DNA from: Pseudodesulfovibrio sp. S3
GTDB taxonomy: Bacteria; Desulfobacterota; Desulfovibrionia; Desulfovibrionales; Desulfovibrionaceae
NCBI RefSeq assembly: GCF_004025585.1
Contig: NZ_QTZO01000005.1
Location: 186,001-250,000 of the forward strand
DNA length: 64,000 nt
Direction: 5' to 3'
Made by a program: the position numbers and the translations under genes. Under the pieces are notes generated by a model. The model did not search any database and was not told where the DNA came from. It was given only the letters and a program-made list of their open reading frames with translations. Below are positions 4,798-11,081 of the stretch, in pieces; position 1 is the first letter of the stretch, and every line of letters starts with the position of its first letter.

Positions 4798-5121
4798 ATG
4801 CCGATTTACGAGTATCAGTGTCAGTCCTGCCATTCCCTGTTCGAGGAGTGGCAGTCCGGGTTTGAAGAACAGGATATGGAATGTCCCGAGTGCGGCGGTG
4901 AGTCCAAGAGGCTCATCTCGCATTCGTCTTTTCATCTGAAGGGATCCGGCTGGTATGCCGACGGGTATGGCGGAAAGAATGCCGGGGTTAAGCCTGGCGA
5001 AGCGCAGAAGCCTGTTGAAGGGAGTGGTGGCGACAGTACACCCGAATCCAAATCCGAAGCCGCTCCGGTTTCCAAATGTCCAGTTTCTGCGGACAAATCG
5101 AGCGCAGGCTCCGCATCCTAG
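4798..5121 (+). CDS. FmdB-family zinc-ribbon protein
   Basis: The protein has 107 residues. The N-terminus is the typical FmdB/CxxC regulatory-type zinc ribbon: MPIYEYQCQSC, then CPECGG about 25 residues later, giving four zinc-binding cysteines. This is followed by SFHLKGSGWYADGY, which is also conserved in the family. The tail (about 50 residues) is polar and likely disordered. The family is widespread but has no settled function, despite its original description as a putative regulator of formamidase or amidase genes. A terminator follows immediately. Confidence 0.88.
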   Translation: MPIYEYQCQSCHSLFEEWQSGFEEQDMECPECGGESKRLISHSSFHLKGSGWYADGYGGKNAGVKPGEAQKPVEGSGGDSTPESKSEAAPVSKCPVSADKSSAGSAS

Positions 5122-5131
5122 AGTATGCGCC

Positions 5132-5159
5132 AAAGGCAGCTATGGCTGCCTTTTTTTTT
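5132..5159 (+). terminator. intrinsic terminator
   Basis: AAAGGCAGC, a three-base loop, then GGCTGCC and a run of nine T residues. It ends the FmdB-family gene. Confidence 0.92.
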
Positions 5160-5246
5160 GGAGATCGACGCCCTTGAGTTTTATGGCTTCCTTGCCATAG
5201 TATGCCCCTGCAAGACCAAGCACCATAACGTGGAGTGTGAGAGACA

Positions 5247-6545
5247 ATGCTTGAACGGTATTCCCGTCCGGAGATGAGAGAGTTGTGGACCCTGGAAAAC
5301 AAATTTCGGGTCTGGCTTGAGGTGGAGCTGGCCGTGACCAAGGCCTGGACTGAAATGGGCGTAGTCCCCCAGGAAGCCTGTGACGAAATCCATGCCAAGG
5401 CAGACTTCGAGATCGATCGTATTCTGGAGATCGAGGAAACCACCAAGCATGACGTTATCGCCTTTTTGTCCGCAGTGGAGGAAAAGGTCGGTCCCAATTC
5501 TCGCTATATCCATCTGGGATGTACGTCCTCGGATATCGTGGACACGGCCAACGGCGTGCTCCTGACCCGCGCCGCCGACATCCTGGCTGCAGGCATCGAT
5601 CGCATTCTCGGAGTGCTCAAGGACCTGGCTTATAAGCACAAGGGGCTTATCTGCATGGGCCGCACGCACGGCATCCATGCCGAGCCGACCACCTACGGCC
5701 TCAAGTTTGCCGGGTTCTATGCCGAGTTTATGCGCCACAAGGAGCGGTTCGAAGCGGCCCGAAAGAGCATCCGTGTGGGCAAGCTCTCCGGTGCAGTGGG
5801 CACTTTCGCCCATCTCAGCCCTGAACTGGAAGAACGCACCTGCGCCATTCTGGGGCTTGAGGCCGATCCCCACTCCACCCAGATCGTACAGCGCGATCGC
5901 TATGCGCAGTTTTTCACCACCCTGGCCATGCTGGCCGGAGGCATCGAGCGCCTCGGGCTGGAACTTAGGCATTTGCAGCGCACAGAGGTTTCTGAGGTGG
6001 AGGAAGGCTTCTCCAAGGGCCAGAAAGGGTCGTCGGCCATGCCGCACAAGAAGAACCCCATTTCTGCGGAGAATCTCTGCGGTCTGGCCAGGCTCATCCG
6101 GTCGAACTCCGTGGCGGCCATGGAAAATCAGGCCCTGTGGCATGAGCGTGATATTTCCCACTCCTCTGTGGAGCGGATCATCATGCCGGATACCACGGCT
6201 CTGGTGGACTACATGCTGAATCGCATGTCCGGCGTGCTGGAACTGCTGGTGGTCAAGGAGGATGTCATCGAACGCAACCTCATGAGTTCCTTCGGTCTTT
6301 TCTACTCGCAGAGGGTGCTGAACAAGCTCATCGGCACCGGCCTCAAGCGGCAGGAAGCCTATGAAATGGTTCAGAAAGTGGCCATGCGTTGCTGGGCAGG
6401 CCGCATCCAATTCGAGGATGAAGTGCGTAACGATGCGGAAGTAAACAAACATCTTGTTTCTAACGACCTTGACGAAGCTTTCGACCCCTCGTATTACAAA
6501 CGATATGAGGATGTGGTTTTCAGCCGCGTCTTTGGGGGGAAGTAG
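5247..6545 (+). CDS. purB: adenylosuccinate lyase
   Basis: This 432-residue cytoplasmic enzyme of the fumarase/aspartase superfamily carries out two purine steps: SAICAR to AICAR, and adenylosuccinate to AMP. The superfamily signature SSAMPHKKNP is present at about residues 266-275, with the flexible-loop serine. Conserved HLGCTSSDIVDT and GRTHGIHAEPTT blocks carry the general acid/base histidines. A GAGAGA-type ribosome site precedes the ATG. Its stop is two bases before pyrE, so purine and pyrimidine genes share an operon. Confidence 0.97.
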   Translation: MLERYSRPEMRELWTLENKFRVWLEVELAVTKAWTEMGVVPQEACDEIHAKADFEIDRILEIEETTKHDVIAFLSAVEEKVGPNSRYIHLGCTSSDIVDTANGVLLTRAADILAAGIDRILGVLKDLAYKHKGLICMGRTHGIHAEPTTYGLKFAGFYAEFMRHKERFEAARKSIRVGKLSGAVGTFAHLSPELEERTCAILGLEADPHSTQIVQRDRYAQFFTTLAMLAGGIERLGLELRHLQRTEVSEVEEGFSKGQKGSSAMPHKKNPISAENLCGLARLIRSNSVAAMENQALWHERDISHSSVERIIMPDTTALVDYMLNRMSGVLELLVVKEDVIERNLMSSFGLFYSQRVLNKLIGTGLKRQEAYEMVQKVAMRCWAGRIQFEDEVRNDAEVNKHLVSNDLDEAFDPSYYKRYEDVVFSRVFGGK

Positions 6546-6547
6546 GT

Positions 6548-7105
6548 ATGACCGAGTTCAAGTCCAGGCTGGCAAAGCTGTTGCTCAGGCTTTCTTACAA
6601 GGAAGGCGACTTCACGCTGACTTCCGGCAAGAAGAGCGACTACTATTTCGATTGCAAACAGACAGCCCTGCACGCCGAGGGCGGCTATCTCATCGGGCGT
6701 CTTTTTTTCGAAATGCTCAAGGCCTATGATGTGGACGGCGTGGGCGGCATGACATTGGGCGCGGACCCACTGATCTCCGGGGTGACCGTGGTCTCCTATT
6801 TGGAAGGACGGCCGTTGCCGGGATTCATCATCCGCAAGAAATCCAAGGGGCATGGCACCGATCAATATCTTGAAGGATTGGCCAATTTCAGCAAGGGTGA
6901 CAAGGTCGTCCTGCTGGAAGATGTGTGCACCACGGGGGGGACCTTGATCACGGCCGCTGAACGCGTGCGGGATGCGGGCCTTGAGATCGTCGGTGTGTTG
7001 GCCGTTCTGGATCGTGAAGAGGGCGGCAGGGAAAAACTCAAGTCGGCGGGACTGGAATTGAATTCCATCTTTACCCGTCAGGAGTTGCTGGCTGCGGGAA
7101 GGTAG
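6548..7105 (+). CDS. pyrE: orotate phosphoribosyltransferase
   Basis: The enzyme (185 residues) makes orotidine 5'-phosphate from orotate and PRPP in pyrimidine synthesis. The PRPP-binding motif VVLLEDVCTTGGT is at about residues 118-130. The N-terminal block FTLTSGKKSDYYFDCK is typical of PyrE. The start lies two bases after purB, with GGGGGAAG as ribosome site inside the purB end. Length fits the short bacterial form. Confidence 0.96.
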   Translation: MTEFKSRLAKLLLRLSYKEGDFTLTSGKKSDYYFDCKQTALHAEGGYLIGRLFFEMLKAYDVDGVGGMTLGADPLISGVTVVSYLEGRPLPGFIIRKKSKGHGTDQYLEGLANFSKGDKVVLLEDVCTTGGTLITAAERVRDAGLEIVGVLAVLDREEGGREKLKSAGLELNSIFTRQELLAAGR

Positions 7106-7166: not shown

Positions 7167-8426
7167 ATGCGTGTAGCAATCATTGTTCTGATTATCTTGA
7201 TGACTGTGAGCGCGGCCTGTGCAGAGGGCTGGGCGCCGGTGCTTTCGTCCCATGCGTATGGCCCGGAGCGGATCATTGCCGTGGACAAGCAGTCTCAGGA
7301 ATTGATCATGCTGGAACGCAAGTCGCCCTTGCACGAGGTTCGCCGCTTCCCGTGCACCACGGGACAGTCCCTCGGAGACAAGAGCGAGGAAGGCGATCTG
7401 CGCACCCCCGAAGGTATCTACTTCGTGGGGGGCCGCATCAATCGGAAGCTCGATTGGGGTCTCTACGGCAACATAGCGTATTCCTTGAATTATCCAAATC
7501 CAATAGATCGGATCAAGGGCAAGACCGGCAGCGGCATCTGGCTGCATGGTCGGGGCAAGACCTTTCTTCCGAGGGACACGCTGGGCTGCGTGGCGCTCAA
7601 GGTGCCGGACATGGAGCGCGTGGCCATGGAGGCCGCCTTCGGCACCCCTGTGGTCATTGCCAACGATCTGGACTGGTCTTCGGAGCCGGGCGAGAGCGAG
7701 GTCACGGCCCTGACCCTGGCCAAGAAGCTGGAAAGCTGGGCAACGGACTGGGGCAATAAGGACGAGGCTTTTTTTGCCTACTACGATGCCGAATCCATAG
7801 AATCGTCCGAAGGGTTGGTCTTCACGAATTTCGAGAACCACAAGCGGAACATTTTTGCGTCCCAGCCATGGATTCAGGTCATGGTCGACAATGTCCGGGC
7901 TATCCCCGGGCCCGGCTACTGGGTGACCTGGTTCGATCAGTATTATCGTGCTCCGGGAATAGCTTCGACCACCGGCAAGCGGTTTTACTGGCTCCGGGAC
8001 GCGGATGGAGAATGGCGTATTGCCGGGCGCGAATACACCCCGGCGTCGGAACAGCTGGATGCCAAATACCTGGCCGCCAAGTCCGAAGAGGTCCGGGAGG
8101 TGGTGGAGTCATGGCGAACTGCCTGGCTGTCCGCCGATGTGGAAGCCTACAAGAACTTCTATGTCTCCCAGGCCGATCAGGGGGGGAGAAAGGGCGCAAC
8201 CAACATTGCTGATTACAAAAAGACATTGTGGGACAAGACGCCTCCTGTTAAGCTTGAAGTTGATGGCCTGAAAGTGGCTTTGCACCCAAGGGGACTCAAG
8301 GTGGCCTTTGATCAGGTGTTTGAAGACGCCAGCGGATATGGCGATGCAGGCCGCAAGACCCTGGTCCTGATTCCGGACGGCGGTACCTGGAAAATCGGAA
8401 GTGAGGAGTGGAGACGAGGAAGATGA
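7167..8426 (+). CDS. Csd6/Pgp2-like YkuD-domain protein with NTF2-like C-terminus
   Basis: A signal peptide (residues 1-19) exports this 419-residue protein to the periplasm. Residues about 33-165 form a YkuD (L,D-transpeptidase fold) domain with catalytic H127 (IWLHGRG) and C141 (TLGC). Residues about 190-300 and 310-419 look like NTF2/SnoaL-type folds (WRIAGREY, WKIGSEEW endings). YkuD plus NTF2-like is the architecture of Helicobacter Csd6 and Campylobacter Pgp2, which are L,D-carboxypeptidases that trim tetrapeptides to tripeptides and help set helical shape. The second gene downstream is a Csd4/Pgp1-like enzyme, which supports this reading over an ordinary crosslinking L,D-transpeptidase. 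The stop overlaps the next start (ATGA). Confidence 0.82.
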   Translation: MRVAIIVLIILMTVSAACAEGWAPVLSSHAYGPERIIAVDKQSQELIMLERKSPLHEVRRFPCTTGQSLGDKSEEGDLRTPEGIYFVGGRINRKLDWGLYGNIAYSLNYPNPIDRIKGKTGSGIWLHGRGKTFLPRDTLGCVALKVPDMERVAMEAAFGTPVVIANDLDWSSEPGESEVTALTLAKKLESWATDWGNKDEAFFAYYDAESIESSEGLVFTNFENHKRNIFASQPWIQVMVDNVRAIPGPGYWVTWFDQYYRAPGIASTTGKRFYWLRDADGEWRIAGREYTPASEQLDAKYLAAKSEEVREVVESWRTAWLSADVEAYKNFYVSQADQGGRKGATNIADYKKTLWDKTPPVKLEVDGLKVALHPRGLKVAFDQVFEDASGYGDAGRKTLVLIPDGGTWKIGSEEWRRGR

Positions 8427-9130
8427 GCGATTCCAAGTACAGCGTACTCTTCATGCGAGACGACCGGGATGTGACCCGGTATCGCATCAGCCCTTTCTGG
8501 CTCAAGATGTTCGTCTTCAGTCAGATATTTCTGCTGCTGTGCGCTGTGGGCGGGATATACATGGGAGTTCGCGGCTTCGGGATCAACTCCAAGCTCCATT
8601 CCGAAAAAAAAGGGCTTGAACAGCGCCTGGTGGACGCGGAGGTCCGGCTGGAGCGGCTGGGCAACATGGAAAAGATTCTCGAATCCTATGATCCCACGGA
8701 GTTGCAGTCCCTGCTCTCCGCCGCCACCACCGAGGCGGAGCAGCCAGAGACCAAAGAAGATGTGGATCTCAACAAGCTTTTTGCTCGCATCGACACACGA
8801 CAGGTCGGTGTGGAAAACATGCAGGCCAAGCTGACGGGCAGCAAGCTTTCCGTCTCATTTGAACTGAACAACCTTCAGGCCTCCAAGTCCATGGCCGGAC
8901 AGGCGGACTTCATCTATCTGACCAAGGCAGGCAAGGTCGTGGATGTCGAAACCAATAAAACCGATCTGTCATTCCAGATTCAACGATTCAAGCGCATTCA
9001 GACAGACTTCCTTCTCCCCGAGGGGATGGACAAGAAGGATCTCTTCGGGTTGCGTCTTGAGATCAGGGGAAAGGACGGGGATGTCATTTTCGCCGAAACA
9101 TATCCCTTCTATCACATTCTGGCATCCTAG
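8423..9130 (+). CDS. membrane-anchored coiled-coil protein of the cell-shape cassette
   Basis: The chosen ATG at 8423 overlaps the previous stop and follows GAGGAAG closely; an in-frame ATG 15 bases earlier is less likely. The 235-residue protein has a short cytoplasmic head, one membrane helix at about residues 22-46 (FWLKMFVFSQIFLLLCAVGG), a heptad-like coiled coil at about 55-90, and a C-terminal beta-rich domain of about 130 residues containing LSVSFELNNLQ. I recognise no family. Its place between two peptidoglycan-peptidase genes suggests a scaffold or regulator of those enzymes. Confidence 0.8.
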   Translation: MSDSKYSVLFMRDDRDVTRYRISPFWLKMFVFSQIFLLLCAVGGIYMGVRGFGINSKLHSEKKGLEQRLVDAEVRLERLGNMEKILESYDPTELQSLLSAATTEAEQPETKEDVDLNKLFARIDTRQVGVENMQAKLTGSKLSVSFELNNLQASKSMAGQADFIYLTKAGKVVDVETNKTDLSFQIQRFKRIQTDFLLPEGMDKKDLFGLRLEIRGKDGDVIFAETYPFYHILAS

Positions 9131-9268
9131 CCGATTGGACGATACCGGCGCTGTTGAAGCGTTGTCCCCCCCCCTTCTCGTATGGAGTGCGCTTCAATTT
9201 TCGTTGTGCTGTGACACCTTTTACGGCCGTCAGGACCGTCTGATAGTTGGGAATACCGGAGATAATTG

Positions 9269-11017
9269 GTGAAAGGGATGCGAATCAAGTTTTTTCTGGC
9301 AACACTCTTCCTGCTGACAATGGGCACTCACGCGGTGGCCGGTTCCTGGGAACATGCTTTCTTCACAGGTACCCAGTATCCGCTCAGGGTAGTCTATCTC
9401 CAGGGTGAACTGCCCGGTCCCACCATCATGGTTCAGGGCGGCATCCAGGGGGATGAAACATCCGGGTTCGTTACCGCACAACTCTTGACCCAGGCGAAAG
9501 TCCTTCGCGGCAACGTCATCGTGCTGCCCCGGGCCAACGTTCCCTCCATCAATCTGTGCAAGAGGCAGATCAACGTCGACATGAATCGGCGGTTTGACCA
9601 GAATTACAACCGGTTTTACGAGGACCGCGTGGCTCGGGTGATCCGCTTCCTGTTGGCGCAATCAGACGCCTTCATCCATCTTCACGAGGGCAGCGGTTTC
9701 TACAACCCCACCTACGTGGACAATTTGCGCAACCCCAAGCGATACGGTCAGTCCATCATCGTGGACACCCTGGTCTATGACAAGATCGATTTGGAACAGA
9801 CCGTCAATTCCGTTTTGACGGAACTCAACGGCAAGATCGGTTTCAGCGATTACCAGTTCAAACTTTTCAATACACGGACCTTTGACAAGGGAACGGACTA
9901 CCCGGAAATGCGCAAGTCACTGACCTGCTATGCCTTGGCCGAACACGGTATTCCGGCCATGGCCGTGGAGGTCTCCAAGTCCATCCGCCAGATCGACTGG
10001 AAGGTCCGTCAGCAGTTGTCGGCCACCGTCATGCTGCTCCACCGGCTGGGTGTGGAAGTCACGCCGCCCGATTTTTCCGACGAGGACGTGCTTGCTTACG
10101 CCCTCAAGGGAGTAAAGGTCAGCGTCAACGGGCGGCTCCTGGAGTCCAGTTCCGTCATCAACATGGTTCCAGGTTCGACCCTGACCGTGAAGTCCATTTC
10201 TTCCGGGTTACGCGAATTTTCACCCGAGTTGGCCCTGTTCGCATCGGACCGTCCCGGCGTGAACCTGATTAATGCCCAGCGCATGGCCCTGGAACCGTTC
10301 AGCGAGTTGGAATTGCGCTCGGACGGCAAGCAGGTGGCAACGGCCCAGGTCCGCTGGACCGGCAAACTGCCGTCTTCGGCGGGTGATGACAAGCCCGCGT
10401 TCGTCTGCTGGCTCAACGGCAATCCGGTGTTCGTGCGTGACGGCGAAGTCCTTCATACCGTGCTGGGAGATCAGCTCATCCTTGAAGGGGTGTGGGGAAG
10501 CGATCTCAAGGAGATCGTCAATTTGAAGGGGTTCGTTGCCATTCCCTGGGCCAACAACGGTCAGGACATGGGGTGGGAGATCATCCTCGACCCCGATAAT
10601 TTCATGGGAAAATACGCCATGGCGACCGATCGGCCGGACGCGACCCGGTTCAAGGTGGTCCGCGAGACCCCCGGGGTGCCCAGCGCCTCGTTCTATGTGG
10701 ACATCGTGCCGCGCAAGGTGCTCGCACTCAGGCTGGCCGACAAGCGCGGCCAGAACCTCCTCATCCCCTGGACCTCAGGCGGCAGTTACCGGCTGCCCGC
10801 AGGAGAGTACGTGCTTGAGGCGGCCTGGAGCAACGGTCCGGGCAACAAGCTCATGGCCACAGCCGGGGACATGCCCTTGTCCGAAGGGGAGAGCTTTACC
10901 GTGAAGATAGGTAATCCGCTGCCCTTGACTGTCCGTCAGGCAACCACCTTTGACGGTCTTGGCACCATGACCTTTACCGCAGGCAGTTTCGCGGAACTCC
11001 CCTCGGCTATCAATTGA
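9269..11017 (+). CDS. M99/M14-like D,L-carboxypeptidase, Csd4/Pgp1-like
   Basis: This exported zinc carboxypeptidase has 582 residues from a GTG start, chosen because GGAG lies 7 bases upstream; an in-frame ATG follows at 9278. A signal peptide ends near residue 25. The zinc site uses GGIQGDE, so the ligands are Q60 and E63 with a histidine in IHLHEG (H137 or H139). Glu234 in AVEVSK is the catalytic base candidate. A Gln ligand and this spacing are hallmarks of Helicobacter Csd4 (peptidase family M99), which trims peptidoglycan tripeptides to dipeptides. Residues about 270-582 look like beta-sandwich domains, longer than in Csd4. A terminator follows. Confidence 0.85.
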   Translation: MKGMRIKFFLATLFLLTMGTHAVAGSWEHAFFTGTQYPLRVVYLQGELPGPTIMVQGGIQGDETSGFVTAQLLTQAKVLRGNVIVLPRANVPSINLCKRQINVDMNRRFDQNYNRFYEDRVARVIRFLLAQSDAFIHLHEGSGFYNPTYVDNLRNPKRYGQSIIVDTLVYDKIDLEQTVNSVLTELNGKIGFSDYQFKLFNTRTFDKGTDYPEMRKSLTCYALAEHGIPAMAVEVSKSIRQIDWKVRQQLSATVMLLHRLGVEVTPPDFSDEDVLAYALKGVKVSVNGRLLESSSVINMVPGSTLTVKSISSGLREFSPELALFASDRPGVNLINAQRMALEPFSELELRSDGKQVATAQVRWTGKLPSSAGDDKPAFVCWLNGNPVFVRDGEVLHTVLGDQLILEGVWGSDLKEIVNLKGFVAIPWANNGQDMGWEIILDPDNFMGKYAMATDRPDATRFKVVRETPGVPSASFYVDIVPRKVLALRLADKRGQNLLIPWTSGGSYRLPAGEYVLEAAWSNGPGNKLMATAGDMPLSEGESFTVKIGNPLPLTVRQATTFDGLGTMTFTAGSFAELPSAIN

Positions 11018-11049
11018 TGCCCACTCATTAGAAATTTATATGATGCAGG

Positions 11050-11081
11050 AAAACCCCGGAAGATAACTTCCGGGGTTTTTC
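11050..11081. terminator. intrinsic terminator
   Basis: AAAACCCCGGAAG and CTTCCGGGGTTTTT flank a four-base loop, with T and A runs outside. It ends the cell-shape operon and can also act for the converging ABC operon. Confidence 0.93.

Follow-up and report, generated by a model that had tools for sequence, protein, structure and literature searches.

The window analysed here, a 64,000-nucleotide stretch of the Pseudodesulfovibrio sp. S3 genome (contig NZ_QTZO01000005.1, positions 186,001 to 250,000), contains on its plus strand a cluster of three linked genes, following purB and pyrE and lying between two terminator-like hairpins, as judged from open reading frames (ORFs) read from the sequence. 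The genes encode a YkuD/L,D-carboxypeptidase-like protein with two NTF2-like domains, a predicted membrane protein (the middle protein), and a carboxypeptidase of the M99 (Csd4/Pgp1) kind. This cassette is probably the periplasmic half of a cell-curvature machine. By its sequence it appears to be a system of the Csd/Pgp/Bd1075 type, whose novelty would lie in its more constant partner, the middle protein. The computed evidence consists of gene identities, active-site residues, folds, linkage, and absences that correlate with those of bactofilin and recur in two lineages of rods.

Desulfovibrio is a textbook comma-shaped genus, and a literature search at title level found nothing on how it gets its curve, nor on Csd4/Csd6 or bactofilin there. 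The present analysis provides a candidate list for this curvature, comprising the YkuD-NTF2 enzyme, a putative membrane adaptor, the M99 enzyme and a bactofilin. Rod-shaped relatives would act as natural knock-outs, and the list opens a way to study the one-sided placing of a wall enzyme.

The two wall enzymes

The features of the cluster are as follows.

7167..8426, plus strand: YkuD / L,D-carboxypeptidase-like protein with two NTF2-like domains (Csd6/Pgp2/Bd1075 kind), 419 amino acids, hydrophobic N-terminus (Pfam YkuD and Cds6_C; best PDB match 7o21)
7269..7658, plus strand: YkuD catalytic domain, residues 35-164 (Pfam, alignment), with H127 (codon 7545-7547) and C141 (codon 7587-7589)
7716..8021, plus strand: first NTF2-like domain, Cds6_C, residues 184-285 (Pfam)
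8082..8414, plus strand: second NTF2-like domain, about residues 306-416, with W415 (codon 8409-8411) (alignment to Bd1075, domain 2, E 2.4e-7)
8423..9130, plus strand: middle protein, 235 amino acids, no Pfam family (ORF; its start overlaps the YkuD gene stop, ATGA)
8492..8686, plus strand: predicted membrane helix of the middle protein running on as a coiled coil, residues 24-88 (AlphaFold2 model; putative topology)
8792..9118, plus strand: beta-sandwich domain of the middle protein, immunoglobulin (Ig)-like, residues 124-232, presumed periplasmic (fold class from the model)
9269..11017, plus strand: M99 (Csd4/Pgp1-kind) carboxypeptidase, start GTG 9269 or ATG 9278 (ORF, Pfam, fold match)
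9419..10063, plus strand: M99 catalytic domain, residues 48-262 (Pfam, alignment), with Q57 (codon 9446-9448), E60 (9455-9457), H136 (9683-9685) and E231 (9968-9970)

All three genes lie where the initial annotation had placed them (7167-11017), and its assignment of the enzymes to the Csd6/Pgp2 and Csd4/Pgp1 types is borne out by Pfam, sequence and fold matches, with Bd1075 as the closest solved relative of the YkuD protein. The latter scores above the curated Pfam cut-offs for both YkuD (E 1.3e-16) and Cds6_C (E 2.5e-24; 86 bits against a cut-off of 27). The residues H127 and C141, named in that annotation for a YkuD/NTF2-like protein, are exact and, together with W125 and G140, invariant in all 25 rows of an alignment of the window protein (P0001) with 24 of 38 extracted homologous stretches. 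Solved relatives found by sequence are 7o21 (E 6.5e-33), Pgp2 (5.6e-22) and Csd6 (4xzz; 3.2e-20). A second NTF2-like stretch, about residues 306-416, which aligns with Bd1075 and matches DUF4440 and TIGR02246 weakly, in both cases below cut-off, is an addition to the initial annotation, where no such domain was listed.

The structure 7O21 is that of Bd1075, an LD-carboxypeptidase of Bdellovibrio bacteriovorus which makes this bacterium vibrioid, its deletion giving rod-shaped cells (PMC8938487). Bd1075 is described as located on the convex face, its placing requiring the NTF2 domain and residue W303, a residue that the same paper describes as absent from other LD-carboxypeptidases; its authors state that the mechanism placing a wall enzyme on one cell side is not known (PMC8938487). 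When aligned with Bd1075, in the numbering of that paper (reached by an offset of 5 worked out by arithmetic), W415 of the window protein corresponds to W303, F385 to Y274, H127 to H141 and C141 to C156. The W415 position is Trp in 25/25 aligned rows and position 385 is Tyr in 22 and Phe in three, whereas in the first NTF2 domain the residue at the matching place is not fixed (W 13, Y 8, F 2, I 1, M 1). In other NTF2-like domains, too, a Trp at this place may be structural.

The window protein therefore shares with Bd1075 the catalytic His and Cys, an NTF2 end with the aligned Trp, and an aromatic residue at the Y274 position. Bd1075, however, has one NTF2 domain and is described as monocistronic (PMC8938487), whereas the protein here has two, and its gene stands in an operon-like cluster beside those for a membrane protein and an M99 enzyme. 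Csd6 of Helicobacter pylori and Pgp2 of Campylobacter jejuni likewise combine YkuD with NTF2, and it is the first NTF2 domain that matches Cds6_C, the second being extra in comparison with both. Still longer open frames for the YkuD protein, of about 620-1020 amino acids with extra NTF2 repeats, occur in the genera g4 and g7 and in most genomes of genus g3. One such frame, of 1022 amino acids (G116, L174 586-3651), carries three Cds6_C stretches plus SnoaL/DUF4440 matches, and NTF2 domains seem, on sequence, to multiply in its genus.

The M99 protein scores above the curated cut-off of Peptidase_M99 (E 1.2e-31) and also of the broader, related family AstE_AspA_cat (E 1.9e-10). Its residues Q57, E60, H134, H136 (both in the IHLHEG motif) and E231 are invariant in all 20 aligned rows, which comprise the window protein (P0003) and 19 of 27 stretches. 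The earlier reading of Q60, E63, E234 and the His of IHLHEG as an M99-like site holds, with Q57, E60 and E231 being the same residues counted from ATG 9278 and the earlier numbers fitting GTG 9269. The catalytic domain matches the Csd4 structure 4wck with E 4.7e-24. When an AlphaFold2 model of the protein (predicted local distance difference test, pLDDT, 86.2; predicted template modelling score, pTM, 0.86) was compared with the PDB by Foldseek, the five best matches were all Csd4 entries (E 1e-24 to 4e-23), and this M14-like protein does align with M99/Csd4 around the Q/E/H site. These matches span 450-483 columns (gaps included) at 21-22% identity, with a root-mean-square deviation of about 16 and a TM-score of 0.42-0.43 by query. 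Judged from the model, whole-chain superposition on Csd4 is loose, and a match of the rear domains thus appears unsupported.

The protein shares with Csd4 (H. pylori) and Pgp1 (C. jejuni), both of family M99, the Gln zinc ligand, the Glu, the His and the catalytic Glu at aligned positions. It is unlike them in its low M99 score and in having no Pfam match, up to E 1, to the further Csd4 domains M99_m and M99_C. M99 proteins that are unlinked to the YkuD gene in two other genomes (G123, G172) reach 283.8 and 260.7 bits to M99, with M99_C, against 110.7 bits for the window protein, which by this measure appears to be a divergent branch. No M99 match was found in any of 14 control genomes; together with domains above cut-off and invariant sites, this places the observation well beyond chance.

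The middle protein, gene linkage and bactofilin

No family in Pfam or NCBIfam matches the middle protein. Its AlphaFold2 model (pLDDT 87.9, pTM 0.53) has an N-terminal hairpin, a long helix (residues 24-88), a low-confidence linker and a beta-sandwich (124-232). A specific fold family was rejected, as Foldseek against the PDB gave only weak beta-sandwich matches (best E 2e-4). An alignment of 33 of the 40 available rows shows D13, N150 and G159 to be invariant and R12 and R21 to be almost so. When 24 genomes found by way of their dsrA loci were searched with a profile, two Desulfovibrionaceae matched with E 3e-69 and 5e-60, and a Desulfonatronospira metagenome-assembled genome (MAG; G225) had no match. 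Occurrence outside the order was also rejected, since 21 further genomes (Desulfobacterales, Desulfobacteraceae, Deltaproteobacteria and others) yielded six short weak matches, the best with E 1e-8.

Linkage and occurrence were surveyed in 199 genomes of the order, in which 172 had a match to the YkuD protein, 143 to the middle protein and 133 to M99; single-sequence searches with the first two (P0001, P0002) can miss distant homologues, as the P0002 search did in G112, where the gene was found later. In 117 of the 121 genomes for which both places are listed, the YkuD gene is followed immediately, on the same strand, by the middle gene. The exceptions are G010 and G004 of genus g32, with no YkuD gene adjacent, and G057 and G153, where the genes are on different contigs; this count leaves out six g32 genomes with the middle protein (G015, G020, G025, G030, G035, G040). 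M99 is linked to the YkuD gene in 69 of 126 genomes, among places listed. The initial annotation had the two enzymes adjacent and joined by a third gene. Of these features, it is the pairing of the YkuD enzyme with the middle protein that is constant, and adjacency of the two enzymes is less so. Where the YkuD gene has no middle gene at its locus (G209, G211/G157, G203/G189, G216), M99 is absent too; in G062 the locus is broken by a contig end.

Within f1, the family of the window genome (139 genomes), both enzymes are present in 119, the YkuD gene only in seven, M99 only in one (G180) and neither in 12, giving totals of 126/139 for the YkuD gene and 120/139 for M99. Co-occurrence of the enzymes has a Fisher p of 9e-12 with kinship ignored. 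The seven are G080, G086, G062, G103, G157, G161 and G189; G103, presumably a Lawsonia, has the NTF2 part only. One further candidate M99 carrier, G098, was rejected and counted as lacking the gene, its sole match having E 6.8e-4 and 24% identity over residues 32-139. All ten genomes of genus g3 without the YkuD gene are also without M99. A purB tree of all 37 sampled g3 genomes and two outgroups requires at least five changes of state for the YkuD gene and at least six for M99. The two genes show no linkage in those g3 genomes that were compared (about 627 kb apart in G113); M99 being elsewhere, its loss is therefore a separate event.

The flanking features are given below; in those g3 carriers that were inspected, purB-pyrE likewise precedes the YkuD gene.

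5132..5153, plus strand: terminator-like hairpin, 9-pair stem plus T run, putative upstream limit of the probable transcription unit
5247..6545, plus strand: purB, conserved upstream neighbour (ORF)
6548..7105, plus strand: pyrE, conserved upstream neighbour and syntenic anchor (ORF)
11048..11081, plus strand: terminator-like hairpin closing the unit, 15-pair stem plus T run

The window has nine terminator-like sites against a mean of 5.7 in shuffled sequence, so that chance sites are expected among them too.

Bactofilin (PF04519) was sought in 17 genomes of our choosing. It was present in nine, namely the window's own (G000, twice), G113, G016, G201, G103, G172, G123, G010 and G217, and not found in eight (G199, G118, G162, G044, G052, G029, G212 and the Mailhella MAG G216), which include all three Desulfomicrobium genomes tested (G044, G052, G029). 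M99 agrees with bactofilin in 15 of the 17, the exceptions being G103 and G010. The middle protein and bactofilin agree in all 15 of these chosen genomes in which the middle protein was looked for, a comparison that leaves out G199 and G212, covers G216 at the YkuD locus only, and counts as absent a 122-amino-acid ORF of G029 with a weak profile match (15 bits).

In the window's genome (G000 C11:36000-46000), one bactofilin gene comes after mreC, a small ORF that matches no Pfam family and is presumably mreD, a penicillin-binding protein (PBP) transpeptidase gene and an FtsW/RodA gene. It precedes genes that we read as ATP synthase-like, and a similar order was seen by eye in several related genomes. 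A second bactofilin of this genome (G000 C18:41000-51000, 4896-5408, minus strand) lies away from the mre/rod cluster.

The middle protein is built like a membrane adaptor and, because of this build and its co-occurrence with bactofilin, we propose for it a Csd7-like role between bactofilin and the wall enzymes; the likeness is one of proposed way of working. In H. pylori, Csd7 is reported to link to the bactofilin CcmA (PMC10151779). The Csd7/CcmA/Csd1 assembly is a membrane scaffold tying a cytosolic bactofilin to periplasmic wall enzymes, as the middle protein may do here. It differs in that bactofilin follows mreC, pbp2-like and rodA-like genes in the present genome, whereas in most curved or helical organisms it is described as following an M23 gene (PMC10151779).

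Curved and straight relatives

A dsrA scan for named genomes gave at least 80 loci, and among those listed neither Bilophila nor the type strain of D. desulfuricans is represented; 29 plus four further genomes were searched for both enzymes. Among these 33, the YkuD protein was found in 24 and M99 in 20. Neither enzyme was found in Desulfovibrio piger PG-251-APC-1 (G199), nor in its kin G118, G162 and G166 (DsrA identity 100%, 98.1% and 97.9%) and G092 (same clade), kin that belong to the window's family. Neither was found in G205, G210, G212 (Desulfovibrio sp. An276) and G225, and the YkuD protein without M99 occurs in G203, G209, G211 and G216. Both enzymes are present in a MAG called D. desulfuricans (G201), in Solidesulfovibrio aerotolerans (G220) and in Fundidesulfovibrio agrisoli (G227). 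In published descriptions, D. piger cells are immobile rods, those of D. desulfuricans are curved or sigmoid, and Desulfomicrobium forms straight or ellipsoidal rods (PMC8069399).

The relatives of D. piger have an empty site. In G162, G166, G118 and G092, purB-pyrE is intact, and about 0.8 to 2.9 kb beyond it comes a gene with 72% identity (455 residues) to the one found behind the middle gene in G113, where purB was placed. We read this gene of G113 as a symporter. Elsewhere G112 lacks the YkuD gene and keeps the middle gene, and G158 retains a 26-28 residue piece of the YkuD-protein N-terminus downstream of pyrE. Apparent gene remnants in pyrE of the D. piger kin, from tblastn with a g3 YkuD protein, were rejected as stop-to-stop frames reaching into pyrE. 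Two dsrA copies were seen in these kin (G162, G118, G166, G092) and in G016, about 5.5 kb apart in G162 and G118.

Desulfomicrobium was recognised by its DsrA. The DsrA proteins of G044 and G052 (f4/g39) score 1000.6 and 968.5 bits against 2xsj, which we take to be the D. norvegicum DsrA structure, with next best scores of 788.0 and 785.5, and genus g39 was therefore taken as Desulfomicrobium. The same assignment was rejected for f5/g32 (G010; 777.6 bits to 2xsj against 749.6 for other DsrAs). Of the at least 16 g39 genomes, none is listed as carrying M99 or the middle protein; a YkuD match is recorded for 16, and in 14 it is strong.

Several observations weigh against a link between the cassette and curvature. 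Desulfomicrobium keeps a diverged YkuD-NTF2 protein with the catalytic motif, its C-terminus lacking E-x-W (three inspected). Mailhella is tabulated as a rod and Lawsonia as a vibrio, with Desulfovibrio, Solidesulfovibrio and several other genera variable, rod or vibrio (PMC9174804, Table 1). Two Mailhella MAGs (G217, G218) nevertheless have all three proteins of the cassette; in a third (G216), M99 and bactofilin are absent, as is the middle gene at the YkuD locus. The probable Lawsonia (G103), of a vibrioid genus, has neither M99 nor a YkuD domain, and retains the NTF2 pair, the middle protein and bactofilin; an ORF of two NTF2 domains was seen to adjoin its middle gene (L199/L277), the catalytic domain not being found. 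G080 and G086, of the window's own genus, are without M99. In genus g32 the middle protein occurs without an adjacent YkuD gene (G010, G004) and without M99. G010 has purB-pyrE, then a 200-amino-acid ORF (L184 3271-3873; lipoprotein-like by our reading) in the place of the YkuD gene, then the middle gene, with a distant YkuD protein elsewhere and no M99. All three independent pairs in g3 agree (p 0.25), a test with no power at this size; the 17-genome bactofilin comparison covers few independent losses; and some genomes without the genes are small and symbiont-like, so that general decay may explain part of the pattern. As to whether straight-rod relatives carry the genes equally often, D. piger is without both enzymes and Desulfomicrobium without M99 and the middle gene, whereas the Mailhella MAGs and the probable Lawsonia run the other way.

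Proposed mechanism and alternatives

From these results we infer the enzyme activities, the role and topology of the middle protein, the placing of the YkuD enzyme and the shape phenotype, as follows. On its sequence, the YkuD enzyme would trim the last D-Ala of tetrapeptide stems (tetra to tri), held on peptidoglycan by its two NTF2-like domains, of which the second, Bd1075-like and ending in the invariant E-x-W, may place it on one side wall. The M99 enzyme would then remove meso-diaminopimelic acid, the tri-to-di step of Pgp1 and Csd4. The two enzymes would thus fit the stem trimming described for Pgp2 and Pgp1 (PMC10151779). As modelled, the middle protein could be a one-pass membrane adaptor, its short hairpin lying in the cytosol, its helix crossing the membrane and running on as a coiled coil, and its Ig-like domain facing the periplasm; it would tie the YkuD enzyme to the cytosolic bactofilin encoded after the mreC, pbp2-like and rodA-like genes. 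Uneven trimming along the cell would bend the growing wall and so produce the vibrioid shape. A broader proposal is offered more tentatively, as an idea we hold to be possible: that the middle protein is the first member of a new transmembrane adaptor family coupling the bactofilin of the mre/rod cluster to an NTF2-guided L,D-carboxypeptidase, that the NTF2 repeats, of which there are two here and more in other genera, serve as a side-wall address thought confined to Bdellovibrio, and that lineages becoming straight rods lose all of these genes together.

The same genes might instead serve general peptidoglycan maintenance or recycling, stem trimming limiting 3-3 cross-links or feeding stress and stationary-phase remodelling, without shape being the job. 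The trimming chemistry is indeed not specific to shape, the genes occur in most of family f1 (by the totals above, and including two Mailhella MAGs of a rod genus), and Desulfomicrobium keeps its YkuD-NTF2 protein. We nevertheless regard this as unlikely, given that M99 is missing from the 14 control genomes, that the NTF2-bearing YkuD enzymes with a described role met here (Csd6, Pgp2, Bd1075) are shape enzymes (PMC8938487, PMC10151779), and that the genes are jointly absent with bactofilin and in D. piger and Desulfomicrobium. That the YkuD protein is an L,D-transpeptidase, or attaches or detaches a lipoprotein in the manner of DpaA/YafK, is very unlikely. A partial match to the NCBIfam family LdtF_DpaA_YafK (E 4.6e-7) reaches only 29 bits against a cut-off of 365, whereas Cds6_C is above its cut-off and the best structural relatives are LD-carboxypeptidases, the activity being reported for Bd1075 (PMC8938487).

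An alternative for the correlated absences themselves is that gut and symbiont lineages have reduced their genomes or adapted to a host, rather than lost curvature. Small genomes do occur among the losers (G126 and G158 at 1.4 Mb, G112 at 1.6 Mb), and animal intestines are given as the habitat of D. piger (PMC8069399). The genomes of the D. piger kin, however, measure 2.8-3.1 Mb and that of one Desulfomicrobium 4.5 Mb, yet the same genes are absent, and the probable Lawsonia, at 1.7 Mb, keeps bactofilin and the middle protein; reduction thus seems an improbable account, and a role of the cassette in curvature remains the reading we prefer.

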